A stretch of 64,000 nucleotides of DNA, taken from the NCBI GenBank assembly GCA_034620365.1, contig JAQGEQ010000179.1, forward strand, positions 868,001-932,000, in the 5' to 3' direction. Both the position numbers and the translations under genes were made by a program. This stretch comes from Pegea sp. RAD2-039 (Eukaryota; Chordata; Thaliacea; Salpida; Salpidae). The first letter of the stretch is position 1. Each line of letters starts with the position of its first letter. The notes under the pieces are model-generated. The model was not told the DNA's origin and did no database searches. It was given only the letters and a program-made list of their open reading frames with translations. Below are positions 23,150 to 64,000 of the stretch, piece after piece.

Positions 23150-26100
23150 ATGATTATTTTTTCTTTTTCTCTTATTTTTCTCGCAACTATTTGCTCTGTA
23201 AGTTCAATTTACTCTCGAACTTCAACAAGCTTTTCTGATATTTTTTAATCTTTAGGCGTTCACATCTGGTTTATACGAAGCTTCAATTTCTGGAAATCTG
23301 AAAATTCATGAAGAAAGATTTTTGCCAACTCCAGAGCTTGTCGAAGAATTTAAAGTTTCTGAAACCAACATTTCTTTGTCTGAAAGAGTAAATATTCTAT
23401 CTTTAATATTCGATTTTCATATTTTTGTCTTCAAGGACTCAATAGATGAAGACAGAAAAAAGTTTATTATTTGTGCAAAGAAAAATCTATTGATTTCAGA
23501 AAAATCTTCGAAAAGACCAAAACGATCTTTAAAGCCTTTCACAGAATGGAGTGGATTCAGCTGTTGCAAGTGAGATGAAAATTTTTAAGTTAAAACTTAT
23601 CTTATTCAAATACTTTTTTAGTTTGATCACAAAGACACAGATCAGAGAGAAACGAACAGATGAAGAAATTATGATTGAATCAAGAAATTGTGATTGGAAC
23701 TTCTGTTCAGGTTTCTACCCCAGAAAAATTGAATTGAATTTAAAAAAATTGATGCAGATTGTAAAGATCAGTTGAAAGATTGTGAAGTCCTTAAAATGTA
23801 TGGAAGTGCATGTGAGAGATCTTCACCTTACTTATCGTAAGAAGTAGACGATTGAAGTGAAAATGATTCATAGAAGTCTTGTTTGTTCAGATACATGGCA
23901 GCTAAATGCAGAAGCACTTGTCAATTATGTAGATCGACAGTTTTAAAAGAAATATCAAAAGAAGGTCACCGTCATGGACCAGGACCTGAACTATCAACAT
24001 CAAGACCAATATCAAAGCCAAATATGATTAGAAAAGATCAAAGTATACTTCGAGATTAAGTTTGAAGCAAAAAATAAAAAATGTAAATTGTTGAAGATGC
24101 TGAAAGTGTACGGGTTGACATCTACTCAGCTTATTACAGAGGTAATCTTTACTATCAATATACAATTGGAGAATTGCCTAAGGGGCCGGCGCAGTGGGCT
24201 CCAGCTAATATCAACAACAAAGAAGACTTGTTTTATTTCCATTTATCAAAGAAGTAAGAATAAACTTTAAAATATGGATTATTTAAAATTGGAAACTGTT
24301 TTTTAGGCCAACCTCTAAATATAGCAAAGCGATTTATTTCTGTAGTAGCAGATACCGCTCCTTCACAAAGTTCTTAGTGAAACCAATCTATTGCAGGAAT
24401 GGTAAGATGACATTTCTATAATAAATTGGATTTAACGACCTATAAAATACTGACAGGAACTTTAAATTATTCATTTATGAAGTCAAACTTTTAATTTATT
24501 AGTTTTTACACAGAATTTTTGCAAATTAGTCAAAAAATGTTGAACTATTTCTATTGATAGGCTGGAAAACTGCGTTTGTCTTGTATGGGTCTAATTACAG
24601 AAGTACTGGAACAGTTGCTCTAAAAGTTGCAGCTTCGGGGAAATCCCCATGGATGTCACGAATATATAACGGACGCAAATGTTGCGGATATCATAAAAAT
24701 GAATGGACTTTTTTTGCGTTGGATAAGAAAGGTAAAAAAATTTCAAACATCAAACTTGTTGTTCTAAACTTGATTTTTAGATGATAACTCAGCAATAGTA
24801 GAGGAACCTTCTGACAATAACGACAAAAATATTGTTTCTACTATTTCAAAGGTCGAAAAGTCATGTCTTGACCAACACAACTTTTTCAGGTTTGAACTTT
24901 TATTTCCTTAGAAGATATTTGAGATACAATTTTTTAGAGCTCTTCATAATTCACCCCCTCTTTTGTGGGACGATAATCTCGCTAAAACAGCGAAAAAATG
25001 GGCAAACTACCTGATAAGAGCTGCCACAAAATCACCATTCTCCATCAAACCAGGATTTGAGAAGACTCCGAATTGGCCTCATTCAAAGGTTAAAAATTCA
25101 TATTTTTTCACAGAAAATGAATTTTTAGCTAAAATTTAGAGAGGGAGTCGATATAGAGGTGATGGAGTAGGTGAAAATATCGCCTGGGAACTAAAAATCC
25201 GTGCTTCCCCTCTTAAAGAGTTTGTTCTGCGATGGTACGCTGAAATTTTTGATTACGAATCACAAAACCCTTTGAAAAGCGACTCAGAAAGACCAACAGG
25301 TTAAATTTGAATACTTCTTGATGGTTTCATCATTTACGCGGATTTTAGGTCATTACACACAAATGTTATGGAAAGATTCTAATTATATTGGATGTGCAAT
25401 TGAAACTGGTCAAGTTCAAGTTTACGGGCGAACATACGAATCGACTTATGCTGTCTCACATTACGCTCCTGCTGGAAATTTAATCAGTTACAATCATGAT
25501 CGAACGATGAGGATGTATCAACACAACGTCAAGTCCATCAGAGATAGTAAGTTCGAAAATGTTTTCATCAAAACTTGTTTACAAGGTAGAATATTTTTCT
25601 TTCGAAGTAATCGATCTGTTTACGAGCAATGATTCGACAAGTTTTGCTTTTTTTTAACAATATTTTTAACACGTTAATGAAGAATAATATGTTGATCATC
25701 TATAAACAGTTTGAAACATGCTAAGGCATGTTTAGTCTTTTAAAGCATCATTTAAGCTGATCTTATTATGATTTGATTTGTATTAAATTTCAATCACATT
25801 AAGCTAAGTTTTGAGGTTGGTTTTCAAACCTCAAACTTATTTTAGAAACGCTTCTTAATTTATAAGCGGGTTAAGTTTTATCTGCAGTCACAGCCAGGAT
25901 TGGTTAGTTTATTTTACAGTAAATCTAATTACAATGCAAAAAACAACTCGACAATTTTGATTGTAACCTTTATTAGATACTTGTCGAAGTCCAACAAACT
26001 GTAAAGTTTATGGCAACAGTGGTTGTTTAGGCTTCAGTAAAGCTTTCACCTGTAAATGTGCAAACACTAAATCAGGGTAAGTAAAATTGTTTACAACTCA

Positions 26101-34996: not shown

Positions 34997-36345
34997 TTAG
35001 ACGAATATCTTTTGAGGTATCGTATCAATGCTGTAGTATTGATGGAATATTTCATGTTCTTCAACTCTAACTATTCTAATTCCAGAAAGATCATCACCTA
35101 ATTGAGCTCCAACAGCAGATGAGACAACACACTCAACCTACAAAAAGTTTAAAAAAATAAGATAAGTGAAATAAATAATTTGTTTCTTTACACTTGGGTG
35201 TAGACGTTGTGTTTGTTTAACTGAAGTGTATTATGCTAGTAAGACGCCAAAGTGAGAGACATTATCAAATTTCTCACGTTTTTCGACGAATCTTCAGTAG
35301 AAGTCCAAAAACCTCCGGCATTTCGATGATAATGTCCACAAAAGACTTTCTTTATGCCAGCAGTTGATAGTTTCTTTAAAAAGTTTTCACGAATTTTTTT
35401 GGGGATGTTGAAATAAAAATCTTCTTCGTCTGGTTTGTTGATGAACATGGGAATATGCATAAAGAGCACAGAATGCTTAGCAACAGAAGATCTGAAGAAA
35501 AGAATATTTCAACAAATGAAGCTAAAAACCAAACTTGTTGAAAAATTAAGATAAAAAACGAGATTCGAACTTTTGAAGTTGTTCTTCCAGCCAATTTTCC
35601 TGTCTTTTTGCATATTCTTTATATGATGAGGGATCATATACCAGCTGACTATTAATAACAATGTAGAAAACGCCTCCGACCCAAAAGCTATAAAAGTCAT
35701 CGCCGAAATGTTGCTGGTACCAATCGATTGACTTCGAGTCAGGGTAATTCCCCACATCATGATTACCACTGACAAAGAATACAGGAATATTTGATTTCAA
35801 TTTACATAAAACTTCTTTCACATCGGAAACTTGCTGGATTCTTATACTTTCATCTTCACCTGAGCAATCATACAATTTATTACTTGTTTGTAGCAGAAAA
35901 TCCTCCATGTTTGTAGCTTCATTTATTTAGTTTCTTTAACCTGACTTAATTATATAAAATTTTAAAACCTGGTAATGCGTTGATAATATCACCTCCAATA
36001 CACACAAATTTAGGAGAAGGACTCATATTATTGATGGCCTCAACTGATTTTGAAATTAATTTAATTTCTTCTTTCCATGTATGGCCTAAAATTGAAATTT
36101 TGTTTTAATTTATCTAAAGTTTAAGATCTTAAAAGTAAGTTTTACCTTTTCCTTCATTCTCAACCATATCTATGAGTCCAGGTTGAGGGTCTGCTATAAA
36201 AATAAAAGAATAATTTCCTTTCCACAATTCCTCAGTAGCTAGAAAATTCAATCGATAACATCTGCTATTTTTGCTTAATCTATGAAATTTCACCTTTATC
36301 AAAGCCTTTAACTTGTTGGTTTTCAGCTTTTATCAAGTGAGCCAT
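34997..36345 (-). CDS. CPPED1: CPPED1-type calcineurin-like metallophosphoesterase
   Basis: Six minus-strand exons: 36345-36294, 36238-36146, 36085-35969, 35916-35571, 35491-35278 and 35137-34997. They give 320 codons plus TAA (human CPPED1 is 314). CPPED1 is a Ser/Thr protein phosphatase that acts on AKT in vertebrates. The metal-binding motifs are all present: D34 in IADPQPG, D81 in GGDIINA, N139-H140 in SGNHD, H215 in FMHIP, and H256/H258 in GHYHRNAGG. YSFWVGGVFYIVINSQ is the family signature after GNHD. The donor of exon 4 (AAAA|GTTCGA) was chosen by phase. The stop overlaps an AATAAA (34992-34997). A 27-nt possible micro-exon lies at 35194-35220. The gene faces the same way as ZGPAT, 1.1 kb upstream of it. 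Confidence 0.93.
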
Positions 36346-42406: not shown

Positions 42407-42982
42407 CTATGCAATCTTATATGCTGATGTAGATTTAAATATTTTTTCTACAGTAGAAGGCTTCTTTCTATATTCTACAGAGTTGGTTAAAGTATAAAGA
42501 AAGCCTTCAGTTGACTTTAAAGCATTTGATCTCCATCTTTTAATTCCAAAATTCTTGATAACGGTTCGACATCCTTTTAAATATGAGTTGATCCACCCTT
42601 CTCTTATAATCAATGTGTCAGTTTTCTGAGGGGTTATTGTCAATTTTTCTTGACAATCCATCATATTTTTATAAGATATGTTATAAGTATACACAACCAT
42701 AGTTTGCTCAACTCTATTTACGATCGATTCTTCAACAATATAAACTAATTTTTTCATATGATTTTTAAAGATATAAGACCCCCATGAAGGTATTGAATTA
42801 GTCTTAGATAATATTCTGATACTTCTTAAACTTCCATTTTCAGTTATTTCTCGAGCAACAACATCTTCACTAAGCACATGTTGGCTGAATTTGTTGGGAT
42901 ACTTTTTCCAGAACCCACAAACCACTTCAAGCCAAGAATGATTGAATACATGATTAAAAATTGCATACTTTGAATTATCCAT
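42407..42982 (-). CDS. PRELID1: PRELI domain-containing protein 1 (PRELID1), intronless
   Basis: A single open frame of 191 codons with ATG at 42982. PRELID1 works with TRIAP1 in the mitochondrial intermembrane space to move phosphatidic acid. The PRELI/MSF1 domain covers almost the whole protein: SWLEVVCGFWKKYPN, HVLSEDVVAREI, RILSKTNSIPSWG, VYIVEESIVN, QTMVVYTYNI, REGWINSYLKG and FGIKRWRSNALKSTEGF line up in order with PRELID1/Ups1. It is slightly shorter than human PRELID1 (219 aa), lacking the LEA-like tail. It has no intron although every other gene here has many, so it could be a retrogene. The frame is fully open. The stop lies about 300 bp upstream of the CFAP36 start on the same strand. 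Confidence 0.88.
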   Translation of the reverse strand: MDNSKYAIFNHVFNHSWLEVVCGFWKKYPNKFSQHVLSEDVVAREITENGSLRSIRILSKTNSIPSWGSYIFKNHMKKLVYIVEESIVNRVEQTMVVYTYNISYKNMMDCQEKLTITPQKTDTLIIREGWINSYLKGCRTVIKNFGIKRWRSNALKSTEGFLYTLTNSVEYRKKPSTVEKIFKSTSAYKIA

Positions 42983-43625
42983 AGAACCAAATTTACTTAT
43001 TATTTTAATTAATATATTATTAGCATTAACTGCAATTAAAAAAATAATTTTACCAAACTACTTAAGCTTGACCATTGGGAATGAATAAAACATTTTCATA
43101 AAGTGTTTTAGATCAATAATTAATAAGTAATTGTAGATCTAAATTTAAACAAGAAAAAAGTAACATTTAATCACTGTAAAAATGAAAATTATAACTTTTT
43201 TAGTTAACCACAAACAAATTTATATTAGGTATTTAATAGTTTAAAACGTTTTAATTTAAATGTAAACAAAAAATACAAATAGGTTCACCTTATATTTATC
43301 ACTATGCTCTCATTGTGCTGCGGAACAGCAAGTCAGACAATTAGCTCTTATGTAGTTTTGGCCCAAACTATGCTTTTAAAACTTGCTAAAATGATAATAA
43401 AGTCATTGACCATTTCATTAGTAAAACCTGAAATAAAAAATGGTAATTCATATAATTAAAAATTCACAAAGTTTGAATGACTTTATTTCCGGAAATGAAT
43501 AATATTTTCTTAAAAGTTAATTAGAAGTTCATTCTATTTGAATAAGTTATTTCTAGGAAGTGATTTGTATATTATATATATATTATATATTGTGGCTGGT
43601 GACAGTAAAAATCGTTTATAAAACT
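42983..43625. other. Spacer upstream of PRELID1
   Basis: AT-rich. A minus-strand stretch at 43340-43430 is preceded by a good acceptor (TTTTTTATTTCAG), but its frame soon stops and no partner exon is visible. No gene is called. Confidence 0.35.
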
Positions 43626-44093
43626 ATGGTGGATACACATAAAACTACTAAGACCTTACGATCAAATATAAAGAAAAACCATAAACCGATTTCATCAAAA
43701 CAAGATTGCAATGGCAATTGCCAATCCTGCAATAAAATTTGCTCTGGTGAAGATCCGGCAATAAAATGCTTTAAATGTCTCTCCTGCTTTCATCTCACCT
43801 GTAGTGATGTGAGCAAGAACATTTATGAAATATTTGAAAACAACCAGTTGAAGCAAATGGGATTTAAATGGTTTTGTATTAAATGTAGAACCATGGACAC
43901 ATCAGCTCCCTCATTTAATTCTAATCAAAACCTATTATCCGACATCAGCAAATGTATTTCCGCTGAATTAGCCAAATTTAAATCGGAAATTGGCAAAGAT
44001 GTTGACAAGATCAATGAGAAAGTTTCTAGTTTGTCTAAATCAAAGGATACCTCTACAAAAAAAAACAGTCACATGGGCCTCGGTGGTCGGTGA
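43626..44093 (+). CDS. LINE ORF1 with PHD-like zinc finger
   Basis: About 155 codons from the ATG at 43626. The N-terminus is basic. The middle has a Cys-rich finger: C-x3-C-x2-C-x3-C, then CFKCLSCFHLTC, then WFCIKC, which fits the C4-H-C3 order of a PHD finger. PHD-like fingers are known in ORF1 proteins of some CR1-group LINEs. A short coiled-coil-like Lys/Ser/Glu region follows. The frame then ends at the point where the copy is damaged (KKNSHMGLGGR), so the native C-terminus is probably missing. Confidence 0.7.
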   Translation: MVDTHKTTKTLRSNIKKNHKPISSKQDCNGNCQSCNKICSGEDPAIKCFKCLSCFHLTCSDVSKNIYEIFENNQLKQMGFKWFCIKCRTMDTSAPSFNSNQNLLSDISKCISAELAKFKSEIGKDVDKINEKVSSLSKSKDTSTKKNSHMGLGGR

Positions 44094-45600
44094 TCTCGGT
44101 TTCGACAAAATGCTAGTATGGTGCAGCTTCTTGCCAAGAAGGTCACCTACACGCACAAAAATCTTACTTTAGAAGGTGAGGACAAGAAAACAATGTCATC
44201 ATATTTAATGTCTCTGAGACTAATAACGACGATGACAGTAAGTTTTCTAATCAAATGTGCTCTCAAAGCCTTGATTTTGTGGACATTCCAAAGGTATCAA
44301 TGACTAGACTTGGAGTAAAAAGCTCAGATCATTAAAGACCGTTGAAAGTGTCCTTTCAAGGAAAGTTGGAACAAACCCAAGTTTCTTGCTAAACTGTATA
44401 AGCTAAGGCTTGACAAAAAATTCGAGCGTATTAGAGTAGCACATGATATGTGTGAAGATGATCGCTTAGAAAATAAGTCTTCTAAAAAAGGCATATAACC
44501 GAAATCAGAAGGAACAACTAACTGATTTCAAATGTAGTTCGAGGTCAAGGGCCTTTTTTTTTTTTTCAAAAAACGGAAGTGGGAAATGACCACTGGTCCC
44601 AAATCTTCTTTTTCACATTCTCTCCACACACAATTGTGAATACCATCCTTCCAGCCCAAGATATCAATTTACCTATCATCAAATCTCAAAAGTGTCAAAA
44701 AGACAATTCTCCTATCACATTAGGTATGTTCTTCAATGCACGGTCAATTATTAACAAAATTTTCAATTGAAAGCTCTTTTGCATTCCAAAGATTTCAGAT
44801 TTGTTTTTATTATTGAAACTTGGCTAAAACCGTCTTATCCTGATTTTTTTCTGGTTGAAGGTAATTGTTTTTGTGTTTTGCGTTGTGACAGACAGTGTGA
44901 TAGAGGCGGCGGTGTTTGCGTAAGTTACAAAACATCGCTAGAACCCAAGATCTCCAGAATTCAGATCGATGCCAATAATTGTCCAGAGTTTGAGATTATC
45001 GCTTTTAATTTTCATTGCTCAAAGTCCAAACTTTCTCGTTTTATATGTAACTACCTACCACTCTCTAAAATTAATGATGAGGTTACTGTTAAAGCCTTAT
45101 TGAAGGTTCTAAAGAGTGTTGTGTGTCCTGAGTTATATATTTTGGGGATTTTAATTTTAGTAAATTGATTGGAATAACCCGAATTTATCATTTATTGGAA
45201 AATCGTTTAACTTCGATAGCGACAATGCTAATTCAGCCATTTTAAGTCAGGCCTTTGTAAGCTTTCTCGATGCCAATAACCTATTTCAGATGGCTACTTT
45301 TCCAACCCGAGTTAGTGGTAATACTTTGGATCTTCTTATCACATCAACTCTGAGGACATTATATACGTTGATCAAAAAGAACCTTTTGCTCTGACATACG
45401 ATCACAACATGATTGAATTCAAGCTTCATCAAGCTTCTTCTATGAACGTTAAAACTTCAAGCAAAAGGAATTTTTACTGTGGAAATTATAATGGTATTAA
45501 CAAACGACCAGTCATTTGATGGAGCACCATCTAATATCTGATGTCCAGCATGGCTTTGTTAAACGGAGATCTTCCCTGACTCAACATCTCACTTTTCCTA

Positions 45601-46286
45601 ATGAGCTTACAGCTTACTTTTTGTGACATCATATATCTCGATTTTTCTAAAGCGTTTGATTCTATCCCACACACTAAGATCGTTACTGTATTAAAAAACT
45701 TAAAAATCAACAAATTTATCTTAAAGTGGATTGAAGATTACTTATCAGGTAGAACCCAACAAACTCGTGTAGAAAGATATTTATCTACTCCTTGTCAAAT
45801 CACTAGTGGTGTTCCTCAGGGTTCTGTTCTGGGTCCCCTTCTCTTTTTAATATTCATTGAAGACTTCATTAGAAGATAGCAGCAGATGATGTCACTGTGT
45901 TTGTGTATGCAGATGATATCAAGCTATTATCTTGTAATCCTTCAAAACTTCAAACTGCACTAAACATTGTAGAAAACTGGTCTACGAATTGGCAGCTCAG
46001 AATCCAGCCCACAAAGTCTGAACTTATAACTTTTTCTCGTAAACCAACTGTAAATTCCTTGAACCAATACTCCATTAGTAGATTTATTATTCAACGAGTG
46101 TCTTCGGTCCTAGACCTTGGCATTACTCTATTATCTGACTTTAAATGGCGCAATTATGTTTCCAAAATCTTTGGAAAGTCAGTCAACCTTGTCTACCTTA
46201 TTATAAAGACCTTTAATTTGAAGGATCTATGCTTTTTTATCAACCTTTTCAAATTTTACGTACGTCCTTGTACAACCCAATATTAA
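45601..46286 (+). pseudogene. LINE ORF2 reverse-transcriptase core (broken)
   Basis: Two adjacent open frames carry RT blocks: YLDFSKAFDSIPH (first catalytic Asp region) and SGVPQGSVLGPLLF in the first, then VYADDIKLL (catalytic YADD) and WSTNWQLRIQPTKSEL in the second. A frameshift between 45879 and 45897 separates them. The N-terminal RT region upstream is largely missing. Confidence 0.8.
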
Positions 46287-47054
46287 TTATGATAATTATA
46301 AACATCATCTCAGCTTCTTCAATTTAGATACTTTGGAAATCCGACGGACATAATGCGACTTAATTCTTATTTTAAAAATTCTCCACAATTTAGTTGACAT
46401 TCAGTTTGATGATTTCTTTTCCATTAGTCCTTCCCTCAAGTTATATGAGCTCAGACATTACATCTTAATAAGCCTATATCACCTGGTACATTAGTCAGAT
46501 CAAATTTTTTCTCATACCGCACAATTAGTACATGGAACCAGCTGCCATTAGACATTTTCATGTCAGAATCACTCGTGCTGTTCAAAAAAAAGTTGAACCG
46601 TTATGATATTGCCAACACTGCCATTTCTAAACTGTTATTTTTTTTTTTTATATTATTAATATTCCATGTAATTGTTCACTGTTATATGCTTTGAGGACTA
46701 TTGAAATGGCATGTGTTACATCTTTTACTTTCTATATTTTTGACTAAATAGATGTTACTGATAAGAATGTGTGTTAGTGAGAGGTGCTCTCTTCAGGTAC
46801 CCTCTTTCGCATTTATTGTAATAAATAAATAATTTATCCTGACTTTGAACTTTTATCCTCGTAACCATTCAACAAATATTTCTTTGCATAATTTTTTTTA
46901 TTGCAGCATCGTACTAATTAGTCAAAGCCAAGATATTTGTGGTCGTTTTTTCTGGTTTAAGTTTCTTCATTCGGCACCATAAGTTGTAAAGTTTTTATTT
47001 AATCTTTTTAGAGTTAATTCCGATGTATAACCTTCATAATTCATATTACGTTTA

Positions 47055-47378
47055 ATGTGGCAGAAAAAGATCTCAAACAACAAAATCTTAAAGCACAATG
47101 GTCTGACAACAATTTATAGCATGCTATGCAAGCAAAAGCTTCTTTGGCTCGAACACGACCGTCGAATAGATGACGGTCGGATCCCAAAGGATCTGTTGTA
47201 CGGGGATCTATCTAAAGATAAATACAACATCGGCTGTCCCTGTCTCAGCTTTAAAGAAACCAGCAAGCTCAACATCAATATTAGCAATTGGGAAGATATC
47301 GCAGAGAATCGATCCGAATGGTACTCTCTACTTCGCAAACAACTGAAGGAGAAGAAAAATCCGCTTTTAAGGAAATAA
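47055..47378 (+). mobile_element. LINE ORF2 C-terminal fragment (different family)
   Basis: An open frame of 107 codons contains RRIDDGRIPKDLLYGDLS, a CPCLSFKETSKLNI block and WEDIAENRSEWYSLLRK. These match the H(V)RRMDDGRIPK-LLYGEL ... W--LA-DR--WR C-terminal signature found in many animal LINE ORF2 proteins. No RT core precedes it, so it is a 5'-truncated insertion. It differs from the 43626-46833 element, whose tail reads FFSYRTISTWNQLP. The GC-richer stretch to about 47520 may be its 3' UTR. Confidence 0.65.
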
Positions 47379-47645: not shown

Positions 47646-48887
47646 TTACAAAGCATTGGACAAAAAATTGGCAAAGTTTTTAGGAATCAACGAGATATCA
47701 GCAACAGGGTTAGCTTTCAGGAAAGTCAAGAATTGATTTCTTTGTCTTCTCATCTCTCCTATGCCGATCTTCTGTTTAAGTTTGTAAGTGTCTTGGCTTC
47801 CAGGTAAAACTATGATCTCTCCAATGGCCTTTGTTCTTTGAGCCGCTAATATAGAAGCAGCGACAGCCTTGAATAAAAGAGTCAAATACGATTTGAAATT
47901 AGAACTTTAATGGTTTAGTGCAAACCTGGATGACTTTATCAGCTTCAAAAACGAAATCAGGGGACATAAGAGGTGGATTTTGAGTTGAGTTGTTGGCTTT
48001 TTGATGTTTTTTATCAAAGATTGCTTCACAAATCTTTTGGTAAGGAAGAGGTTTATTTGAAGGACCATGAACAAAGAAGAAAGGTGAATCCCAGCGGTTG
48101 AGAGGATTTGGTTCTTCAAATCTCATAATTAATTCTATAAATGATTAAAAAAATATAATTATGTGGGAATATTTTCATGTTTAAGATAGTTAAATTGAAT
48201 CTTCCAAATTGAATCTATCAAATTTTGATCAACTTTTAAGTTAGATTGACAATAAATTATGAAAGAAAATCTTTTAACAATAAAAAAACATTCTTACAAT
48301 AACTAATTTTAGTTTTATATTTTTGAATTTAAATTTTACGTCCAAATGTGGAAAAGATATGAAAATTACCTTTGATTATTTGATCAGAGTATGTCTCATC
48401 TGCTGGTTTCTTTCGATTACATTCAAATACTTCTTCATCTTTAGCATCAACATGAATTAAACAATATGTTGTCCTCACATACTTAGCTACACAATGCATC
48501 TCATAGCGGCAACCTATATTCAAAGTTCTTTCTTAAAAATGTACTTCACAATAAATTAATACTTTTAAATTCAAAAAATAAATTGAAAACTTTTTGAAAT
48601 AAACTATTTTCAGAATTTTGAGAAATTGTTCTACCTTTGATATAATTCAAAGAATCAACTACAACAACTACATCTTTAGAAAGAGATCTCTCAACACTTG
48701 ACTTTAGAGAGCCTCTTGCTTCTTTCTCTTTTCTCGTTTCAGAATAAACAACATTTCTATTCATTTTCCCATCATTCACAACTTGAACTTTCTGATTTGG
48801 ATAATTATTTTTGATCCAATCAACTAACTGATTAGTTCTAATAGTTTTACCAACAGAAGGTTTGCCACAAATTATCACTAATGGCAT
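47646..48887 (-). CDS. KTI12: Elongator-associated protein KTI12
   Basis: Four minus-strand exons: 48887-48635, 48513-48370, 48134-47926 and 47867-47646. They give 275 codons plus TAA, shorter than the roughly 354 aa human protein. KTI12 is a P-loop ATPase related to the selenocysteyl-tRNA kinase PSTK. It binds Elongator and is needed for wobble-uridine (mcm5/ncm5) tRNA modification. Visible motifs: Walker A GKPSVGKT (G8-T15), VVYSETRKEKEARGSLKSSV, Walker B-like DVVVVVDSLNYIKG, CRYEMHCVAKYVRTTYC, then the C-terminal tRNA-binding domain FEEPNPLNRWDSPFF, RRQRNQFLTFLKANP and NFANFLSNAL. The start is the ATG giving MPLVIICGKP, as in other KTI12 proteins. The linker between the two domains is short. 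Confidence 0.94.
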
Positions 48888-49764
48888 AACTATCAAGTAC
48901 TAATAATCCTTTAATAATTTAAGCTATTAGAAAAAAAGATTAGATTAGAATAATGTTGATGAACAATAATCTTGTTAGGAAAATTAAAAACCTCTCATCA
49001 TTAGTGAGATTTTTAGGTTAAATTTTTATAATTTAAACATACCATAATTTAACATTCATATAAAAATTTAATCCACAAATAAAACAACTAAAATTTTTGT
49101 TTTAAAAAATTAAGTTGAATTAATTATTTAATAAATAAAAAATTTATCAAATAACCTGTGGCTAAACTTTCCATTATAACAAACTAATATAATTAATAAA
49201 AAAGTTAAAAAATTAAAAATGCCACAATATTGATAAACAAAAAGTAAAAAAAAAATAGTTATTTCTTACCATAATTCTAAATATAACAGATTGAAATCTT
49301 TTAAATAAAAGTATTAAATAGATTATTGAAACTAATATTTCTAAAATAGGTTTAAATTGTAAACATATTGTAATTTTAAAAAACTATAAGTTATTATTTG
49401 AATTTTTATATTTGAGAGCTCTAATTCTACTTTAAAATAATGATAATAAAAACTTAAGAAGGTCTTACAACTTTTTATTGCATAACTTTCGTTATTTTTA
49501 ATTTTATTGCAGTTATTGACACTTTAAACAAAAGGAGGTAAACGAATTTGTAATTACCATGAGAAATAATATTTGTTACAAAGACTCATTACTATGCTAG
49601 CAATAAGACAAAACAAAAAACTACCATAAAAGTCAAAAAACTTAAAATTAATATTAAGAAAAATTGCTTTTTTTACCAGATATAAAAAATTATAACATAA
49701 GCTAACTACAATTAAGTACATGTTAAAACTAAGCTTAAATTTATATCTCTGACAGGCCAATCAA
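48888..49764. other. AT-rich spacer upstream of KTI12
   Basis: No coding exon. Very AT-rich. Confidence 0.4.
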
Positions 49765-51816: not shown

Positions 51817-54800
51817 TTATTTATCTTCGCCAGACGAAGAAGAAGATGACGAGGAAGAAGAAGATTTACGTGATCTGCTATCTTCATCATTTATCAAACT
51901 TTTTTCAGCTTTATTTTCTTCTTCTTCTTCTTCTTCTTTATTTTTTGTAGTTGACTGTAAAGAAAGTTTCAAAAATAAACAATAAAAAATTACTGATTAA
52001 ATTTAGTGAAATTTGGTAGTTATAGATTTTTAAACTTAGAACAATTTAAGATAAATACTTCAATTTTAGTTATAATTATTTTTATTACTATATTATATCA
52101 GTAATTGATAAATATTATGTCATTTCATCTGATTAACAATTAAAATGTTATTAAGTCAGATTATTTTATTAATATCTTATATCTTAGTTAATTATTTACT
52201 GTCTTATATTGATTGCTGCTGATGTTTTCAACTGGTTCTTTCGTTTCTTTTTTTCTGAATGCAAGTTTCAAAATATATCAAAATTATTTTTCATTTTTAA
52301 AATTTTTTAGAAGTTTTGCAAAGTATCAAGCTGTTGATGGTTACAAAATGAAATTACATATCTTGAAAGTACAACTTCATGTAATTATTATTCTCATTAT
52401 ATTTTATATGATGTGTTTGAATTTTAAATTTAGTATAAGTTCAACAGTTTACTGTTTCAAACTGATGTTTGTGATTAACAAACTTTCAAATCTGTTTTTA
52501 ATATTTTTTAAGATACTCACACTGTATCTGAAGATGATTTAATTGAATATGACTTCAAATATGAGCTAATTATGTAATGTCGATTTATTTCGGCAATTTC
52601 CATTGCAGATCTGAAATAGTTAAGTTAATTATACATAGTTTTATTTTTTATGAATAAATATATTGATTATTAAACTGATAAACAAAGATAAAATAAAATA
52701 ATTTTGATATCAGTTTTATCATATATTCTTTAAGATAAGAAATAGCTTTGAAATACGAATAGATACTTTGTATATTAAACGATGATTTTAAAACATTACA
52801 AAACATACAAAAGTAAGTTTAAACAAACCTTCCATGTATATCTTCCAAACTCACATCTGCATTTGCATTTACCAATACACTAACGGTTTTTAAGTTTCCA
52901 GCTTTACTTGCTAAATGAAGAGCTGTCTGTCCTTCTGTGTTTGTTTCATTTACTTTAGATCCAGATTCTATTAAAGTCTACACAACACATTTTGCTTTTA
53001 CAATATATTTAAAGTAAACCATTGAAATATCAAGGTTGTTGTTACAAATTGAATATTTAGTTTCCAGCGAAATTCCGTTTTCAAGTATTTTTTGAATATT
53101 TTTTTATGGAACAAAAAGTGCTTGTACAAACATAAGTAGCTAAATAGAAATATTTTTACCTCTAACAGCGTATAGTGACCATATATAGATGCCATATGTA
53201 ACGCTGTGTATCCAGTTGTTGTTTCTTTGGTTTTATCTGCTCCTAATTCGATCAAAAACTACAAAAATAAGAATTCTAATTTCTATAGTTTCTTAGTTAA
53301 TAACTATTTTACTTTGAGAATTGATAATTGTCCATTGCAAGCTGCTTCGTGCAGAGGGGTCAGTCCCTGATCACTTAAATGTCTGTTTGTAGAAAAAGAT
53401 ATCAAATTATTTTAAAATGCTGCCAACAAAGAAATGTTTTAACCAAATCAAAAACAACAAAATGTTAAAAGAATCTTTCAAATAAACTTTTTTCTTAGGT
53501 TTTAATTTAAACCACGATTTTTAAGAACATATTTTAAATTTAAATTTAATAGTTTGTCACAAACTCTAATAGATCAAATCTTCTTTTTAATAATTCTTTT
53601 AATTTTTCTTCTCTTCCTTCACGAATCAAGGTATGAACATCCTCTTCTACGTAAGACAAAGATTTTTCATCTAAGACTTTTTCTTCTTCACTATTTGACT
53701 AAATAATAAATGTTATTATCAATATAATCAAACAATATAAAATCTAATTTCAAATTTTTATTAAAAGTTAATTTTGAAGAGATGAATTTTAATAGATTTA
53801 AAATATTTATCAAAAATAATCAATTTCCACTGAAACGAGAAAATATTCAACAAAAACCAAAATTAAGAAATTAGTTTCGAAGCCATTACCTTTTTGTTAT
53901 CTTCTAAAATACCTGATTCAATTGAATCATTTGTAGCTCTAAAACCTTTAAAAAAATAAATACTGATAAACATTTTTAGATTAACATAAAATTCAAATCA
54001 CTTTTCTCATCTGTTTCATGGGAAGTTGCTTCTAAAGCTTCCAAAGTTTCTTCTCTTTCTTCTTTTACTGAAATTGTGTCGAAAGTTGAATTGAGATAGT
54101 ATCAAAATAAAAAAACCACTTCACTATTAAAATCAATTTTCAAGAAGAAATCTGACTTTAAAACTGAGTAATTAAACACTATTTTGTAAGCAACTCAAAG
54201 ACAAGAAATCAGAAAGATGATGACGACTCACGTTTTGAACTAGCTGTTGAAGACTTCATTTCAAAATTGTCCATTCTCTGCTGGTCTGCTACTTCCTGAA
54301 CAATTTCTAACTTTAAAAATATTCAAAAACATGTTTATATCAGCGATTACAGAATCTTAAACTTTTATTTGCTTATTTTTAATCAAAAACATTAAAATAA
54401 ATTTTGAAATTTTACATAATAAAAAAATTAATTTATTTTTGAAAGAATCTAACCTCTGAAGTCGTCTCATCCCTAAAACTTACTTTTTCTTGGACTTCTT
54501 CATCAGTTTGAGCTTCATTTAAAATAGTTTCTATCTGCGTCAAAATTTTCAAATCGTTTGAATAACCCAAATAAATAAAAAAAAAAAAAACAAACATTAG
54601 TTTCTTACTTCTTTAGTCTCTTCATTAATAACTTCAGTTGTAGCTACTATTGCAATCACTTCAGAATTCTTAACTTTTTCTGAAGATAAAAAATATTTGT
54701 TTAACTTTGAAAAACTACAAATTTTCAAAACTAATTTCTGTTAGTGTACAACAACATTTGAATTTATTTCAACTTAGTTGATTCTTAACTAATCGTTTTA

Positions 54801-57800
54801 CCTTCTGTTTCAGAATCAGATGAAGATGATGAAGACGATGAAGACGATGAAGATGATTTTCTAGAACTTGTTGTCTGATCTTTTTCTAGTTCTTTATCTT
54901 CTACACTGACAACAGCTTCTTTAATTTCATCTTCTTTCTGAGTTTAGAAAATCAATTTTAGTAAACTTGCGAAATTTTTTCTTCATTTTCATCATGAAAT
55001 AATTCAAATGTTTCCAAAAAAAAACTACTTTTAATTCTTTAAAGATGAAAACACAAACTTTTACAATAACATATTTTAATAAATATTTAAGCAAACTACA
55101 AACTTGTGAAACAGTTTGTTCATTTTCATCAACCTCTTTCAATTTGTTCGAAATATTTGCTTCATCTTCAGAAAATGAATTGATTTCGTCTACAGCTGAT
55201 TCACAAAATTCATTTTTATTTTCTTCAATTGAAATTTGAGACACCTAAAAGTTTTCAAAATGTTTCTAATGTCTGATATAATTTTTACTAATTGAATCTT
55301 TTAAATAAATTTTAATGCTTTTTAATTATATTTTTTAGGATAAAGTAATTTTAGACAAGCTTTTGTCAAACACTGAATTACTCTCTTACTTCTTTAGTCT
55401 CTTTATTAATAACTTCAGTTGTAGCTACTATTGCAATCACTTCAGAATTCTTAACTTTTTCTGAAGATAAAAAATATTTGTTTAACTTTGAAAAACTACA
55501 AATTTTCAAAACTAATTTCTGTTAGTGTACAACAACATTTGAATTTATTTCAACTTAGTTGATTCTTAACTAATCGTTTTACCTTCTGTTTCAGAATCAG
55601 ATGAAGATGATGAAGATGATGAAGATGATGAAGACGATGAAGATGATGAAGATGATTTTCTAGAACTTGTTGTCTGATCTTTTTCTAGTTCTTTATCTTC
55701 TACACTGACAACAGCTTCTTTAATTTCATCTTCTTTCTGAGTTTAGAAAATCAATTTTAGTAAACTTGCGAAATTTTTTCTTCGTTTTCATCATGAATTA
55801 ATTCAAATGTTTCCAAAAAAAAAAACTACTTTTAATTCTTTAAAGATGAAAACACAAACTTTTACAATAACATATTTTAATAAATATTTAAGCAAACTAC
55901 AAACTTGTAAAACAGTTTGTTCATTTTCATCAACCTCTTTCAATTTGTTCGAAATATTTGCTTCATTGTCAGAAAATGAATTGATTTCGTCTACAGCTGA
56001 TTCACAAAATTCATTTTTATTTTCTTCAATTGAAATTTGAGACACCTAAAAGTTTTCAAAATGTTTCTAATGTCTGATATAATTTTTACTAATTGAATCT
56101 TTTAAATAAATTTTAATCCTTTTTAATTATATTTTTTAGGATAAAGTAATTTTAGACAAGCTTTTGTCAAACACTGAATTACTCTCTTACTTCTTTAGTC
56201 TCATTATTAATAACTTCAGTTGTAGCTACTATTGCAATCACTTCAGAATTCTTAACTTTTTCTGAAGATAAAAAATATTTGTTTAACTTTGAAAAACTAC
56301 AAATTTTCAAAACTAATTTCTGTTAGTGTACAACAACATTTGAATTTATTTCAACTTAGTTGATTCTTAACTAATCGTTTTACCTTCTGTTTCAGAATCA
56401 GATGAAGATGATGAAGATGATGAAGATGATGAAGACGATGAAGATGATGAAGACGATTTTCTAGAACTTTTTGTCTGATCTTTTTCTAGTTCTTTATCTT
56501 CTACACTGACAACAGCTTCTTTAATTTCATCTTCTTTCTGAGTTTAGAAAATCAATTTTAGTAAACTTGCGAAATTTTTTCTTCGTTTTCATCATGAATT
56601 AATTCAAATGTTTCCAAAAAAAAAAACTACTTTTAATTCTTTAAAGATGAAAACACAAACTTTTACAATAACATATTTTAATAAATATTTAAGCAAACTA
56701 CAAACTTGTAAAACAGTTTGTTCATTTTCATCAACCTCTTTCAATTTGTTCGAAATATTTGTTTCATCTTCAGAAAATGTATTGATTTCGTCTACAGCTG
56801 ATTCACAAAATTCATTTTTATTTTCTTCAATTGAAATTTGAGACACCTAAAAGTTTTCAAAATGTTTCTAATGTCTGATATAATTTTTACTAATTGAATC
56901 TTTTAAATAAATTTGAATCCTTTTTAATTATATTTTTTAGGATAAAGTAATTTTAGACAAGCTTTTGTCAAACACTGAATTACTCTCTTACTTCTTCAGT
57001 CTCTTTATTAATAACTTCAGTTGTAGCTACTATTGCAATCACTTTAGAATTCTTAACTTTTTCTGAAGATAAAAAATATTTGTTTAACTTTGAAAAACTA
57101 CAAATTTTCAAAACTAATTTCTGTTAGTGTACAACAACATTTGAATTTATTTCAACTTAGTTGATTCTTAACTAATCGTTTTACCTTCTGTTTCAGAATC
57201 AGATGAAGACGATGAAGACGATGAAGACGATTTTCTAGAACTTGTTGTCTGATCTTTTTCTAGTTCTTTATCTTCTACACTGACAACAGCTTCTTTAATT
57301 TCATCTTCTTTCTGAGTTTAGAAAATCAATTTTAGTAAACTTGCGAAATTTTTTCTTCATTTTCATCATGAAATAATTCAAATGTTTCCAAAAAAAAAAC
57401 TACTTTTAATTCTTTAAAGATGAAAACACAAACTTTTACAATAACATATTTTAATAAATATTTAAGCAAACTACAAACTTGTGAAACAGTTTGTTCATTT
57501 TCATCAACCTCTTTCAATTTGTTCGAAATATTTGCTTCATTGTCAGAAAATGAATTGATTTCGTCTACAGCTGATTCACAAAATTCATTTTTATTTTCTT
57601 CAATAGAAATTTGAGACACCTAAAAGTTTTCAAAATGTTTCTAATGTCTGATATAATTTTTACTAATTGAATCTTTTAAATAAATTTGAATCCTTTTTAA
57701 TTATATTTTTTAGGATAAAGTAATTTTAGACAAGCTTTTGTCAAACACTAAATTACTTTCTTACTTCTTTAGTCTCTTTATTAATAACTTCAGTTGTAGC

Positions 57801-60800
57801 TACTATTGCAATCACTTCAGAATTCTTAACTTTTTCTGAAGATAAAAAATATTTGTTTAACTTTGAAAAACTACAAATTTTCAAAACTAATTTCTGTTAG
57901 TGTACAACAACATTTGAATTTATTTCAACTTAGTTGATTCTTAACTAATCGTTTTACCTTCTGTTTCAGAATCAGATGAAGACGATGAAGACGATGAAGA
58001 CGATTTTCTAGAACTTGTTGTCTGATCTTTTTCTAGTTCTTTATCTTCTACACTGACAACAGCTTCTTTAATTTCATCTTCTTTCTGAGTTTAGAAAATC
58101 AATTTTAGTAAACTTGCGAAATTTTTTCTTCATTTTCATCATGAAATAATTCAAATGTTTCCAAAAAAAAAAACTACTTTTAATTCTTTAAAGATGAAAA
58201 CACAAACTTTTACAATAACATATTTTAATAAATATTTAAGCAAACTACAAACTTGTGAAACAGTTTGTTCATTTTCATCAACCTCTTTCAATTTGTTCGA
58301 AATATTTGCTTCATTGTCAGAAAATGAATTGATTTCGTCTACAGCTGATTCACAAAATTCATTTTTATTTTCTTCAATAGAAATTTGAGACACCTAAAAG
58401 TTTTCAAAATGTTTCTAATGTCTGATATAATTTTTACTAATTGAATCTTTTAAATAAATTTGAATCCTTTTTAATTATATTTTTTAGGATAAAGTAATTT
58501 TAGACAAGCTTTTGTCAAACACTAAATTACTTTCTTACTTCTTTAGTCTCTTTATTAATAACTTCAGTTGTAGCTACTATTGCAATCACTTCAGAATTCT
58601 TAACTTTTTCTGAAGATAAAAAATATTTGTTTAACTTTGAAAAACTACAAATTTTCAAAACTAATTTCTGTTAGTGTACAACAACATTTGAATTTATTTC
58701 AACTTAGTTGATTCTTAACTAATCGTTTTACCTTCTGTTTCAGAATCAGATGAAGATGATGAAGACGATGAAGATGATGAAGACGATTTTCTAGAACTTT
58801 TTGTCTGATCTTTTTCCAGTTCTTTATCTTCTACAATGACAACAACTTCTTTAATTTCATTTTCTTTCTGAGTTTAAAAAATCAATTTTAGTAAACTTGC
58901 GAAATTTTTTCTTCGTTTTCATCATGAATTAATTCAAATGTTTCCAAAAAAAAAAACTACTTTTAATTCTTTAAAGATGAAAACACAAACTTTTACAATA
59001 ACATATTTTAATAAATATTTAAGCAAACTACAAACTTGTGAAACAGTTTGTTCATTTTCATCAACCTCTTTCAATTTGTTCGAAATATTTGCTTCATCTT
59101 CAGAAAATGTATTGATTTCGTCTACAGCTGATTCACAAAATTCATTTTTATTTTCTTCAATTGAAATTTGAGACACCTAAAAGTTTTCAAAATGTTTCTA
59201 ATGTCTGATATAATTTTTACTAATTGAATCTTTTAAATAAATTTGAATCCTTTTTAATTATATTTTTTAGGATAAAGTAATTTTAGACAAGCTTTTGTCA
59301 AACACTAAATTACTTTCTTACTTCTTCAGTCTCTTTATTAATAACTTCAGTTGTAGCTACTATTGCAATCACTTTAGAATTCTTAACTTTTTCTGAAGAT
59401 AAAAAATATTTGTTTAACTTTGAAAAACTACAAATTTTCAAAACTAATTTCTGTTAGTGTACAACAACATTTGAATTTATTTCAACTTAGTTGATTCTTA
59501 ACTAATCGTTTTACCTTCTGTTTCAGAATCAGATGAAGACGATGAAGACGATGAAGACGATTTTCTAGAACTTGTTGTCTGATCTTTTTCCAGTTCTTTA
59601 TCTTCTACAATGACAACAACTTCTTTAATTTCATTTTCTTTCTGAGTTTAGAAAATCAATTTTAGTAAACTTGCGAAATTTTTTCTTCGTTTTCATCATG
59701 AATTAATTCAAATGTTTCCAAAAAAAAAAACTACTTTTAATTCTTTAAAGATGAAAACACAAACTTTTACAATAACATATTTTAATAAATATTTAAGCAA
59801 ACTACAAACTTGTAAAACAGTTTGTTCATTTTCATCAACCTCTTTCAATTTGTTCGAAATATTTGCTTCATTGTCAGAAAATGAATTGATTTCGTCTACA
59901 GCTGATTCACAAAATTCATTTTTATTTTCTTCAATAGAAATTTGAGACACCTAAAAGTTTTCAAAATGTTTCTAATGTCTGATATAATTTTTACTAATTG
60001 AATCTTTTAAATAAATTTTAATCCTTTTTAATTATATTTTTTAGGATAAAGTAATTTTAGACAAGCTTTTGTCAAACACTAAATTACTTTCTTACTTCTT
60101 TAGTCTCTTTATTAATAACTTCAGTTGTAGCTACTATTGCAATCACTTCAGAATTCTTAACTTTTTCTGAAGATAAAAAATATTTGTTTAACTTTGAAAA
60201 ACTACAAATTTTCAAAACTAATTTCTGTTAGTGTACAACAACATTTGAATTTATTTCAACTTAGTTGATTCTTAACTAATCGTTTTACCTTCTGTTTCAG
60301 AATCAGATGAAGACGATGAAGACGATGAAGATGATTTTCTAGAACTTGTTGTCTGATTTTTTTCCAGTTCTTTATCTTCTACACTGACAACAACTTCTTT
60401 AATTTCATCTTCTTTCTGAGTTTAGAAAATCAATTTTAGTAAACTTGCGAAATTTTTTCTTCATTTTCATCATGAAATAATTCAAATGTTTCCAAAAAAA
60501 AAAACTACTTTTAATTCTTTAAAGATGAAAATACAAACTTTTACAATAACATATTTTAATAAATATTTAAGCAAACTACAAACTTGTGAAACAGTTTGTT
60601 CATTTTCATCAACCTCTTTCAATTTGTTCGAAATATTTGCTCCATTGTCAGAAAATGAATTGATTTCGTCTACAGCTGATTCACAAAATTCATTTTTATT
60701 TTCTTCAATAGAAATTTGAGACACCTAAAAGTTTTCAAAATGTTTCTAATGTCTGATATAATTTTTACTAATTGAATCTTTTAAATAAATTTTAATCCTT

Positions 60801-63800
60801 TTTAATTATATTTTTTAGGATAAAGTAATTTTAGACAAGCTTTTGTCAAACACTAAATTACTTTCTTACTTCTTTAGTCTCTTTATTAATAACTTCAGTT
60901 GTAGCTACTATTGCAATCACTTCAGAATTCTTAACTTTTTCTGAAGATAAAAAATATTTGTTTAACTTTGAAAAACTACAAATTTTCAAAACTAATTTCT
61001 GTTAGTGTACAACAACATTTGAATTTATTTCAACTTAGTTGATTCTTAACTAATCGTTTTACCTTCTGTTTCAGAATCAGATGAAGATGATGAAGATGAA
61101 GATGAGAAATGTTTTGAAGAAAAAGTTTTTTGCTCTTGTTCAACTTCTTGCTTTTGAATTTGTATTTTTACCTATTTTTTCATATAAAAGGTTTTCTTTC
61201 AGATCATCTATTCACTTAATTTTTTTCTTACAATTGTTTCTTTTTGTACATCAACCTCAGAATTTGATTTTTTGGAAGAAACTGATTCCACTGTTAATTG
61301 TTTCTCTTCTGTTGTTTGAATTTTTTTCTGTGTTTGTGAGCAGTTATTTAAATTTTTCTTATTAAATATTTGAAATCATGTTTGATAAATAAACATAATT
61401 ATTTTGAAAAAGTTTTAGTACAAACGCTTTAAGTAGAAATTTCATTTATGATATTTACTTTTGTCTCATTAAGCGCTTCAGTTTGTTCAGTGGCTTGTCT
61501 AGCTTCAACTGTATCTTCGTATATTCCGTCTTCATCTACTAATTGAACATAATTACTTTAATTTTGATATAATAATAAGGCTGATATAATTAAATGTGTA
61601 ATTATTTATTGTTTACTTCAAAAGGATTATTTTCTCGCCAATTTCATATTTAAATAAACTTTACCTCTTTTCGTTGGATTCAACGACTGAAAATTTGTTT
61701 CTTTTTCAACTTCAACCTAAAAACGTTTTATTAGTTTTATCAATTTTCGGCATTTCGTAAATTCCAGATAATTACGAATTCTTCAGATCAAATATTTTAT
61801 CATTTGAATTTACTCACGGAAAAACTGTTCTCTCCTTCACCCTCAAACTCTGTAAACATATTTAGAAATTATTAACAATAATTATGTTCAGCTTATTTCT
61901 ACCTTTCCAAGATGTCTTTACATCTGATTCTGCATGTTCCACTTCTTTGAACTCTTCTGCAATCTCCTTTTCGGTTTGCTTCTTCTGTTGATTTGAAATT
62001 TTTTTTAAAAACCAAATATTAAAGATTGCAGTATACAACTGCAAAAGATCTGTTTCAACTAAATTCTTCTAACTTGAGATATCAGCGTTTTTTATATAGC
62101 AAAAGCTGTCACAAGTTTTTTGATATTTATTCTAAAAAATTGTTTCAAAAAACTAACTTGTGAAATACTTAAACTTTCTTTCTTGATTCTTTCATCTTCA
62201 TCTATTTTTGAACTAACACCTATAAGTAAAATTGGCTATTTACAGAACTTCTATTATTAAAAGACTCACTTTCTGTGTCAGGAGAAAATAAAGATTCTTT
62301 TACACTTTCAATTTGTTTGGTTTTCTCAAAAATTTCTTGCTTTTCTTTCTGTTTAGAAAGATTGAATTTGAACACAACAAGAAATAATTGAATTGTATAT
62401 TTGACATATTTATTATCAAATAAATAAATAAAAACTTTGACAAAATCTTAAGATTATTACAAACTATTTTTAAATTTTTTAAAATCATTTGATAGTTTGT
62501 CCATTCTGAATTATAATTCGTCTTATCAAATGATTGGATGTTTTTACAGACCTCTTTTAAGATTGAATCTTCACAATCTTCTTTGACTTTTGGTTTAGTT
62601 CCTGAAAAAAATCAATTATTGATTAAACCAAATTTAAAACAAAACAACTATTCTTTAAATTGCTTACGCTTGACTTGATCGTCATCCAACGAAGATGGTG
62701 AAGAAGAAGATGAAGAAGAAGATGATGAAGAAGATGATGATGAAGAAGATGATGACAATGATGATGAAGAAAAAGATCTTGAATGATAGGACTTTTCTTC
62801 TTCTTTCAATTGTTCAAATTCTTTTTTTATTTTCTATTTACGAAAACCAAATTTGAATTAAATTTAAAGACAGGTCCTTCATCTGATCATTAATCTCTAA
62901 GGAGCTTTGAAGTTTCTTTTTTTTTTTATTTAAAGTGAACTTCTCACAAGTGGTTGAAAACTAACCTTTATTATACGATTCTCCTCATCTTTGATTTCTT
63001 CAGACTCTAAAGACTCGTTTGCATCTTGACTTAAAGATTTTTTAAAAGAAGATTCAGCCTCAATAAAAGTATCTTTTTCGTGTGAATCTTTCATCTGCTT
63101 CTTTTCATATTTTATTTCTACAACTTCTGTTTCAGGGGATTTTTCTTCGCTACTTTCAGGAAGCCCTTCACTTAGAGAAGAAGAAGATGATAAAGAGCAG
63201 CTATCTTCTACAAAGCTCTCAGACTCCTTCACTGTGTCTTCGGAGTTCTCTAAGCTGTACTCTAATTTACTTTCAGGCTCGTCAGGTGCATCGAGGACTT
63301 TCGGATCTTTCGAAGCTTCTTTTAGAACTTCCTCATCTTCCAGAGCTTCCAAAGCTTCTAAAACTCCCGGAGATTTTTTTAATTCCACATCTTCTCCAGG
63401 TTTTATCGTTACTTCCTTCTCACTTCCACTCGAGCTCTTTCTGCTCCGCACCGATCTTTGACTTTTCGATGAGCGACGCGATTTTGCGCTTCGTTTCGAT
63501 TTCGTTGATGACGTCACACTTTTCAACGATATCCGAGAGCTAGGTCTACTAGAAGTTTTTCGGGAAGAAGCTCGATCTCGATCTGATGACGTCATCGACG
63601 CAACGTTTGCAGAAGTCGCTTCATTCGATGCTTCCGTCAACAGCGGTGTTCTAAAGTCCATAAAAAGTCATTAAAGGTCACTAAGGGGTCACGTGGCAGC
63701 TTGTACTCTCACCTGACCCCAAGCGCTGTGTGAGGGCGATTTAGAAGCGAGAGGCTTTCGATCCGATCTTTTTTGTCGTTTCGATCGCAGCTGGATGTTG

Positions 63801-63848
63801 ATCCTGATTCACTGATGAGAGTTTCACTAGAGCTGGATGCAAGAGCGC
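51817..63848 (-). CDS. Giant Ser/Glu-rich protein with 8 tandem exon modules and C-terminal ankyrin repeats (5' incomplete)
   Basis: I reconstruct 47 minus-strand exons, about 1,805 codons, with the start outside the window. N-terminal exons: 63848-63713, 63650-62966, 62833-62668, 62601-62552, 62348-62270, 62219-62158, 61984-61903, 61849-61818, 61716-61665, 61538-61459, 61327-61256, 61171-61063 and 60940-60870. Then eight 3-exon modules (60724-54609, listed separately). C-terminal exons: 54534-54454, 54310-54232, 54067-54002, 53945-53890, 53698-53565, 53382-53313, 53258-53160, 52977-52829, 52610-52523 and 51954-51817. The N-terminal 685-nt exon is rich in Ser/Arg/Lys, then Glu/Ser. Ankyrin repeats include GLTPLHEAACNGQLSILKFL, TGYTALHMASIYGHYTLLE and GQTALHLASKAGNLKTVSVL. 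The tail is a Glu run and Ser run ending GEDK. All junction phases agree. I recognise no orthologue; function unknown. The many DSE/SSxE sites would suit CK2-type phosphorylation (inference). Confidence 0.78.
52523..53698 (-). CDS. Ankyrin-repeat domain exons of the large gene
   Basis: Five exons (53698-53565, 53382-53313, 53258-53160, 52977-52829 and 52610-52523). They encode an N-cap helix (DVHTLIREGREEKLKELL), three recognisable ankyrin repeats with TPLHEAA, TALHMAS and TALHLAS cores, and a C-cap. Ankyrin repeats mediate protein-protein binding. If the last donor (ACA|GTGTGA) were not used, translation would stop two codons later, giving a short alternative C-terminus without the Glu/Ser tail. 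Confidence 0.85.
54609..55244 (-). CDS. Module 8 exons (c, b, a), last of the array
   Basis: Exons 55244-55104 (c), 54937-54802 (b, 136 nt) and 54679-54609 (a). Exon a reads VINEETKE where the others read VINKE. After this module the gene continues into unique exons starting at 54534. Confidence 0.8.
55390..56045 (-). CDS. Module 7 exons (c, b, a)
   Basis: Exons 56045-55905 (c), 55736-55583 (b, 154 nt) and 55460-55390 (a). It has the long Ser run, like module 6. Confidence 0.8.
56191..56846 (-). CDS. Module 6 exons (c, b, a)
   Basis: Exons 56846-56706 (c), 56537-56384 (b, 154 nt) and 56261-56191 (a). It has the long Ser run (27 nt longer than the short form). Exon c has DEINTFSEDETNIS; exon b has DQTKSSR. 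Confidence 0.8.
56992..57619 (-). CDS. Module 5 exons (c, b, a)
   Basis: Exons 57619-57479 (c), 57311-57185 (b) and 57062-56992 (a). Exon a carries the two variants shared with module 2. The intron between c and b is one A shorter in its poly-A run than in module 4. Confidence 0.8.
57765..58393 (-). CDS. Module 4 exons (c, b, a)
   Basis: Exons 58393-58253 (c), 58084-57958 (b) and 57835-57765 (a). It is almost identical to module 5 in exons c and b, including the TCATTTTCATCATGAAATAA intron variant. Confidence 0.8.
58539..59176 (-). CDS. Module 3 exons (c, b, a)
   Basis: Exons 59176-59036 (c), 58867-58732 (b, 136 nt) and 58609-58539 (a). Exon c has DEINTFSEDE, shared only with module 6; exon b has DQTKSSR, also shared with module 6, yet its KENEIK start is shared with module 2. 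Confidence 0.8.
59322..59950 (-). CDS. Module 2 exons (c, b, a)
   Basis: Exons 59950-59810 (c), 59641-59515 (b) and 59392-59322 (a). Exon b starts KENEIKEVVVIVED. Exon a shares two nucleotide variants with module 5 (CTTCAGTCTC and ACTTTAGAATTC on the plus strand). Confidence 0.8.
60096..60724 (-). CDS. Module 1 exons (c, b, a)
   Basis: Exons 60724-60584 (c), 60415-60289 (b) and 60166-60096 (a). Exon c encodes VSQISIEENKNEFCESAVDE and ends NEQTVSQ. Exon b encodes KEDEIKEVVVSVEDKELEK, then a Ser run and DSETE. Exon a encodes KVKNSEVIAIVATTEVINKE. Module-specific change: Gly in place of Glu in the SDNEANIS segment of exon c. Confidence 0.8.
62690..62770 (-). repeat. Ser-coding low-complexity run
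   Basis: On the plus strand this is a run of GAAGAAGATGATGA-type triplets. On the minus strand, in frame, it codes for a run of about 20 Ser with one Leu and a Pro, in the exon 62833-62668. Mixed TCT/TCA codons suggest it is not a pure slippage product. Confidence 0.8.
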
Positions 63849-63960
63849 CTAGAAGATGAATATTAAGATCTGAAAGAAGTCTATAGGATGATACTTTGAG
63901 CTTGAAGATTGAAAATGAGGAAAGAATAGAAAGGTTGAAGATGTTGAGATCCTGGAAATG

Positions 63961-64000
63961 AAGTCTCACAAACAAACTTCCAGATCTTTGACCCTTTCCG
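63961..64000 (-). CDS. Possible upstream exon of the large gene at the right edge
   Basis: A minus-strand stretch reads GKGQRSGSLF followed by a GTGAGA donor at about 63970. This frame and donor could be the exon before 63848, but its start is outside the window. Confidence 0.3.

Follow-up and report, generated by a model that had tools for sequence, protein, structure and literature searches.

We describe an intron-containing coding tandem array in the salp Pegea sp. RAD2-039, in which near-identical units lie head to tail, each with its whole introns, inside one hand-built gene model. The array sits on the minus strand of contig JAQGEQ010000179.1 (assembly GCA_034620365.1), within the 64,000 nucleotides analysed here (positions 868,001 to 932,000 of the contig; hereafter the window, whose numbering is used throughout). 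Eight complete modules, each consisting of predicted exons a, b and c, occupy 54609..60724 (minus strand, exon coordinates) and encode 928 residues in the model. We consider it likely that this array grew by unequal exchange and that it encodes a long acidic spacer. A first-pass annotation had proposed eight near-identical, frame-preserving three-exon modules in one gene, spaced 773–801 bp apart and adding roughly 930 residues that separate a Ser/Arg-rich part from an ankyrin domain; the modules, with the exon sizes given there, their spacing, their frame and their position in the protein were all recovered on the minus strand.

All eight modules, with exons placed by their splice junctions, run in the same orientation. 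The a exons start at 60724, 59950, 59176, 58393, 57619, 56846, 56045 and 55244, giving a-to-a spacings of 774, 774, 783, 774, 773, 801 and 801. Exon a measures 141 nt and exon c 71 nt in every module, exon b measures 127 nt (four copies), 136 nt (two) or 154 nt (two), and the module introns span 166–168, 122 and 145 nt. Module 1 can serve as the example (all coordinates on the minus strand): exon a lies at 60584..60724 (141 nt, phase 0 to 0), exon b at 60289..60415 (127 nt, phase 0 to 1, a serine tract followed by DSETE), intron 2 at 60167..60288 (122 nt) and exon c at 60096..60166 (71 nt, phase 1 to 0). The phases first assigned to the exon ends (0 for a, 1 for b and 0 for c) agree with this arrangement, but exon c, which had been given a phase-0 start, begins in phase 1. 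The spliced module is 339, 348 or 366 nt long with phase 0 at both ends; because splicing leaves the unit a multiple of three, gain or loss of a unit preserves the frame. GT and AG are preserved at every site in all eight copies. The exon b acceptor stretch deviates in one of the eight modules, and the exon c donor stretch occurs in three forms (four, three and one copies). In all eight modules the predicted frame contains 0 stops, compared with 6–7 and 20–22 in the other two. The longest exact direct repeat, 593 bp at an offset of 774, is far above chance, and on the downstream side the homology ends 6–8 nt past the last exon c. A DNA search of the assembly returned eight near-full and two partial module matches, and a protein search with one module returned 25 matches among the best candidates scored; all of these lie at the same locus. 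The copy number given here is that of one locus in one assembly.

The gene model, which was built with 8 kb of flanking sequence, comprises 60 predicted exons from 67322 to 51817 and encodes 2277 residues. All of its introns are GT–AG, and the spliced frame is continuous over 2277 codons with one stop, at the end. Exons 13–60 and part of exon 12 fall in the window (51817..64000, minus strand), with exons 1–11 and the rest of exon 12 beyond it, up to 67322; a gene start previously placed at 63848 had to be abandoned, because the spliced open frame runs on past the window. Exon 14 (62966..63650, minus strand) encodes a Ser/Arg-rich and then acidic region, exons 54–58 (52521..53698, minus strand) the ankyrin repeat region, and the last exon, exon 60 (51817..51954, minus strand), a C-terminal serine tract and the stop codon. 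Pfam scans took in residues 1–490, two modules and the ankyrin part. The ankyrin repeats score above the Pfam cut-off (Ank_2, E 1.1e-27, 96.8 bits versus 27.3); among solved structures, the ankyrin part matched ankyrins, designed repeat proteins and other ankyrin-bearing proteins (best 60 of 508 sequences). For residues 1–490, no family matched with an E of 1 or less. A resemblance of exons 10–13 to a PLAT/LH2 domain, seen by eye, was rejected: this domain was absent from the same scan of residues 1–490, and the comparison with solved structures gave seven chance-level matches (best E 0.67).

The array product is rich in serine and glutamate (S 193, E 179 and K 96 in 928 residues), with 232 acidic versus 104 basic residues, and contains 66 [ST]xx[DE] motifs. 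In a charge–hydropathy plot it falls on the disordered side, and the ankyrin part falls on the folded side. Serine runs of at least six residues occur 11 times in the protein: every one of the eight b exons has one, as do exons 15, 24 and 60. The array product is therefore probably a long, acidic, serine-tract-bearing and disordered stretch. DSETE fits the acidic-kinase (CK2-type) consensus. Repeated modules with acidic serine clusters are also a feature of Treacle and Nopp140; the Pfam scan of two modules gave no match above cut-off.

No two copies of the module are identical, as every pair differs by at least four substitutions; pairwise differences range from 4 to 19 substitutions per unit (unit 8 being compared without its last intron). 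Exon b is longer by 9 or 27 nt in some copies, and intron 1 changes in length by just 1–2 nt, in a T run. Outside the serine tract there are 25 variable sites, 17 of them common to more than one copy and 8 singletons. Shared minority variants, counted with ties assigned arbitrarily, number 16 over the 7 neighbour pairs, 7 over the 6 pairs two modules apart and 12 over the 5 pairs three apart. At greater distances the counts are 6 over 4, 4 over 3, 1 over 2 and 2 over 1. Two variants in exon c are common to copies 2 and 5, and two further ones, located in exons a and b, to copies 3 and 6. Since the intervening intron differs at two sites, the pattern is that of a mosaic, and a single clean block of three modules does not account for it. 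A three-step period among the modules is only suggestive. The mosaic is consistent with repeated rounds of unequal exchange or of conversion. All nine copies of intron 2 are identical, counting a partial ninth copy described below, and regional homogenization is enough to explain this identity. A functional intron 2 was considered and discarded, as its RNA fold does not surpass those of shuffles (z −0.03).

Immediately 5′ of module 1 lies a hybrid ninth module (exons 23–25, 60870..61327, minus strand), recognized by its phases and its partial homology. Exon 23 (61327-61232) is a-like by its phases, 0–0; exon 24 (61171-61063) is b-like, with homology to exon b at the 3′ end and a 5′ part (from 61171) of sequence unlike exon b; and exon 25 (60940-60870) is exon c, all on the minus strand. 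The partial copy covers about 61105..60725, from the end of the b-like exon to intron 3, with intron 2 and exon c between; the 5′ partial match of the DNA search comprises the same exon end, intron 2 and the first part of exon c. As a correction to the first-pass annotation, the homology starts ahead of the first complete module, in this ninth copy. Further upstream, exons 15–22 (61459..62833, minus strand) have intron phases that alternate 0/1 and are candidate remains of older b–c pairs. Nine successive intron phases upstream of the array alternate in this way, a run matched in 293 of 100,000 shuffles of the non-array phases and in 60 of 100,000 resamples drawn from the outer exons. In comparison with exon b, exons 24 and 15 outscore 300 of 300 shuffles, mostly owing to the serine tract, and similarity is marginal for exon 23 with a (p 0.02) and exon 22 with c (p 0.03); exons 16–21 match the module exons no better than shuffles. 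The alternating phases hint at earlier rounds of duplication, in which older b–c pairs may have been added. On the downstream side, exons 50–53 were considered as remnant modules and rejected: their phases (0–0, 0–1, 1–1 and 1–0) start module-like without repeating the module, exon 51 is marginally similar to b (p 0.02), and exon 50 compared with a and exon 53 compared with c do no better than shuffles.

We suggest that repeated unequal exchange multiplied a unit of three exons lying between phase-0 introns, and that further exchange or conversion would then have kept the copies alike. The array product would most likely serve as a long phosphorylatable spacer or as a multivalent binding stretch. 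As each module bears a poly-serine tract followed by DSETE, the number of modules would set both the length of the protein and its putative phosphate load. Copy-number polymorphism of the array between individuals is plausible. Much more tentatively, we raise the possibility of a length-polymorphic protein, in which a phosphorylatable acidic spacer would be set by a three-exon array that is still growing and shrinking in the population, after at least one earlier round of growth that may have left the upstream alternating-phase exons.

Divergence between the modules could also be read as the outcome of positive (diversifying) selection, such as might act in an arms race or on a recognition protein. 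Variable sites are more frequent in exons than in introns (17 of 294 exon nt versus 8 of 435 intron nt, Fisher p 0.006; the exon count omits the serine tract as well as the final 16 nt of exon b, which are invariant), and 15 of the 17 exon changes are nonsynonymous (p 0.003 for nonsynonymous sites versus introns). However, pN (0.063) and pS (0.035) do not differ (p 0.54). Once the three silent changes of the serine tract are included (5 of about 68 silent sites, hand-entered), silent sites, too, vary more than introns (p 0.02) and as much as nonsynonymous sites (p 0.58). When the exon mask was rotated along the unit, the observed count was reached at 83 of 774 positions, or at 135 of 774 without the serine tract. 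In silk genes, introns are likewise reported to be homogenized to a greater degree than exons, and there the exons are under purifying selection (PMC2576457). As the exon excess fails the rotation test, we do not claim positive selection, and we regard this explanation as very unlikely. Another possibility is a decaying or non-coding array, with modules spliced out of the mature message or the gene silent, and repeats spread as neutral tandem DNA. Expression and splicing of the modules are predicted from the sequence, exon a (0–0) and the b–c pair (0–0) could each be skipped without a frameshift, and purifying selection between modules is not visible. Frame, splice sites and the restriction of coding length changes to multiples of three are nevertheless preserved in eight of eight copies, which makes such decay rather unlikely. 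Near-identical units of ~774 bp, with exact repeats of up to 593 bp, are also hard to assemble, and the array might have been expanded artificially or its true copy count might be lower or higher. We think this unlikely, given that every pair of copies is separated by those four or more substitutions, that the serine tracts come in three lengths, that variants are spread as a mosaic and not as verbatim copies, and that the array sits in a contig of 1,160,664 bases.

Several further points weigh against a coding array that grew by unequal exchange and encodes an acidic spacer, in addition to the pN and pS values, in which purifying selection between modules does not show. The exons were chosen by hand for an open frame, so that the openness of the model is in part built in, and the position of the start codon is guessed. 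Two modules matched six Pfam models, none above its cut-off, the best being CCDC85 (E 0.0065, 16.6 bits, cut-off 23.8). A genome search with the ankyrin part gave 50 matches, the best of which outside the locus is 35% identical, revealing no close relative. Clear resemblance to exon b is limited, among the upstream exons, to exons 15 and 24, and comes largely from the serine tract. Taking these points into account, we retain the reading of an array grown by unequal exchange that encodes a long acidic spacer.

The first-pass annotation knew of no named family with this layout, but comparable arrangements are already known from LPA KIV-2, NBPF, SmPoMuc, spider silk and Tetrahymena leucine-rich repeat (LRR) genes. 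Spider silk genes resemble the array in their exon–intron tandem repeats and differ in encoding silk protein, the composition of which is unlike that of the array product. The silk repeats are genomic tandem repeats of exon plus intron that undergo concerted evolution, with the stronger homogenization of introns noted above (PMC2576457). The same account describes the Schistosoma mansoni polymorphic mucins (SmPoMuc), in which exon 2 and its flanking introns form a unit of about 1 kb repeated in tandem up to 20 times, with repeat number varying between individuals (PMC2576457); that unit has a single exon and belongs to a multigene family, whereas the present one has three exons and occurs at one locus. 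LPA KIV-2, in apolipoprotein(a), is likewise a coding tandem array of near-identical intron-containing units, with two exons plus introns per unit and 1–40 units per allele (PMC11201333, PMC11462820). Its unit measures about 5.6 kb and encodes a kringle domain, compared with 0.77 kb, three exons and a low-complexity product here. NBPF/Olduvai has a tandem two-exon unit of about 1.6 kb arranged in three-unit higher-order repeats (PMC9584774); in the present array the three-step pattern is weak, and the NBPF/Olduvai model is absent from the Pfam matches of the two modules. Tetrahymena LRR genes contain intragenic arrays of 90-bp exons in a fixed phase, for which unequal crossing over has been proposed (PMC6564038). 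Those exons are exactly 90 bp long, encode LRRs, are separated by phase-2 introns and occur in thousands of genes, whereas the module exons measure 71–154 nt and are in phases 0 and 1, and an LRR model is missing from the Pfam matches to the two modules. A literature search, judged by title, found no fitting account of ankyrin repeats combined with poly-serine and multi-exon tandem repeats. Genes are thus known to grow by duplication of intron-containing units, and the array opens no new kind of system; as a compact case, with a 0.77 kb unit and alternating-phase exons alongside, it could be used to trace how modules originate, spread and are homogenized, and could show whether protein length differs between individuals.

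Other features were found around the array gene. Upstream of it, beyond the window, the minus strand carries a gene for a MICAL-like flavin monooxygenase (about 4400-6620 of L019, the flanking sequence), where two of the four open stretches scanned matched Pfam (Rossman_Mical, E 1.1e-23; FAD_binding_3, E 6.2e-05). Within the window, we identified an ADAR-type adenosine-deaminase (editase) domain (2667-3407, plus strand; A_deamin, E 1.3e-45), a PRELI-like protein (42407-43057, minus strand; PRELI, E 3.1e-32) and a KTI12-like protein (48546-48899, minus strand; E 4.3e-25). Weaker matches mark a piece of a CAP (cysteine-rich secretory protein) domain (25276-25632, plus strand; E 5.6e-05) and a calcineurin-like phosphoesterase piece (35546-35926, minus strand; Metallophos, E 0.0015, just below cut-off). 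In the assembly, four copies of TTAGGG in a row gave 86 overlapping matches, among the matches listed on four contigs, and four copies of TTAGGC gave 0, an outcome that argues against nematodes. A spliced-leader sequence of bdelloid rotifers had 0 matches when up to 2 mismatches were allowed, and a search for COX1 did not find it. The gene content (MICAL-like, ADAR-type and CAP domains) points to an animal genome. Pieces of a non-LTR-like retroelement occupy 43557-46286 on the plus strand (reverse transcriptase RVT_1, E 1.3e-09; PHD-like finger, E 0.0021, below its cut-off), and the stretch between them at 44755-45165 has no Pfam match. Last, open stretches at 47040-47378 (plus strand) and at L040:2240-2590 (plus strand) have a long near-identical protein segment in common, which is probably a repeated element.

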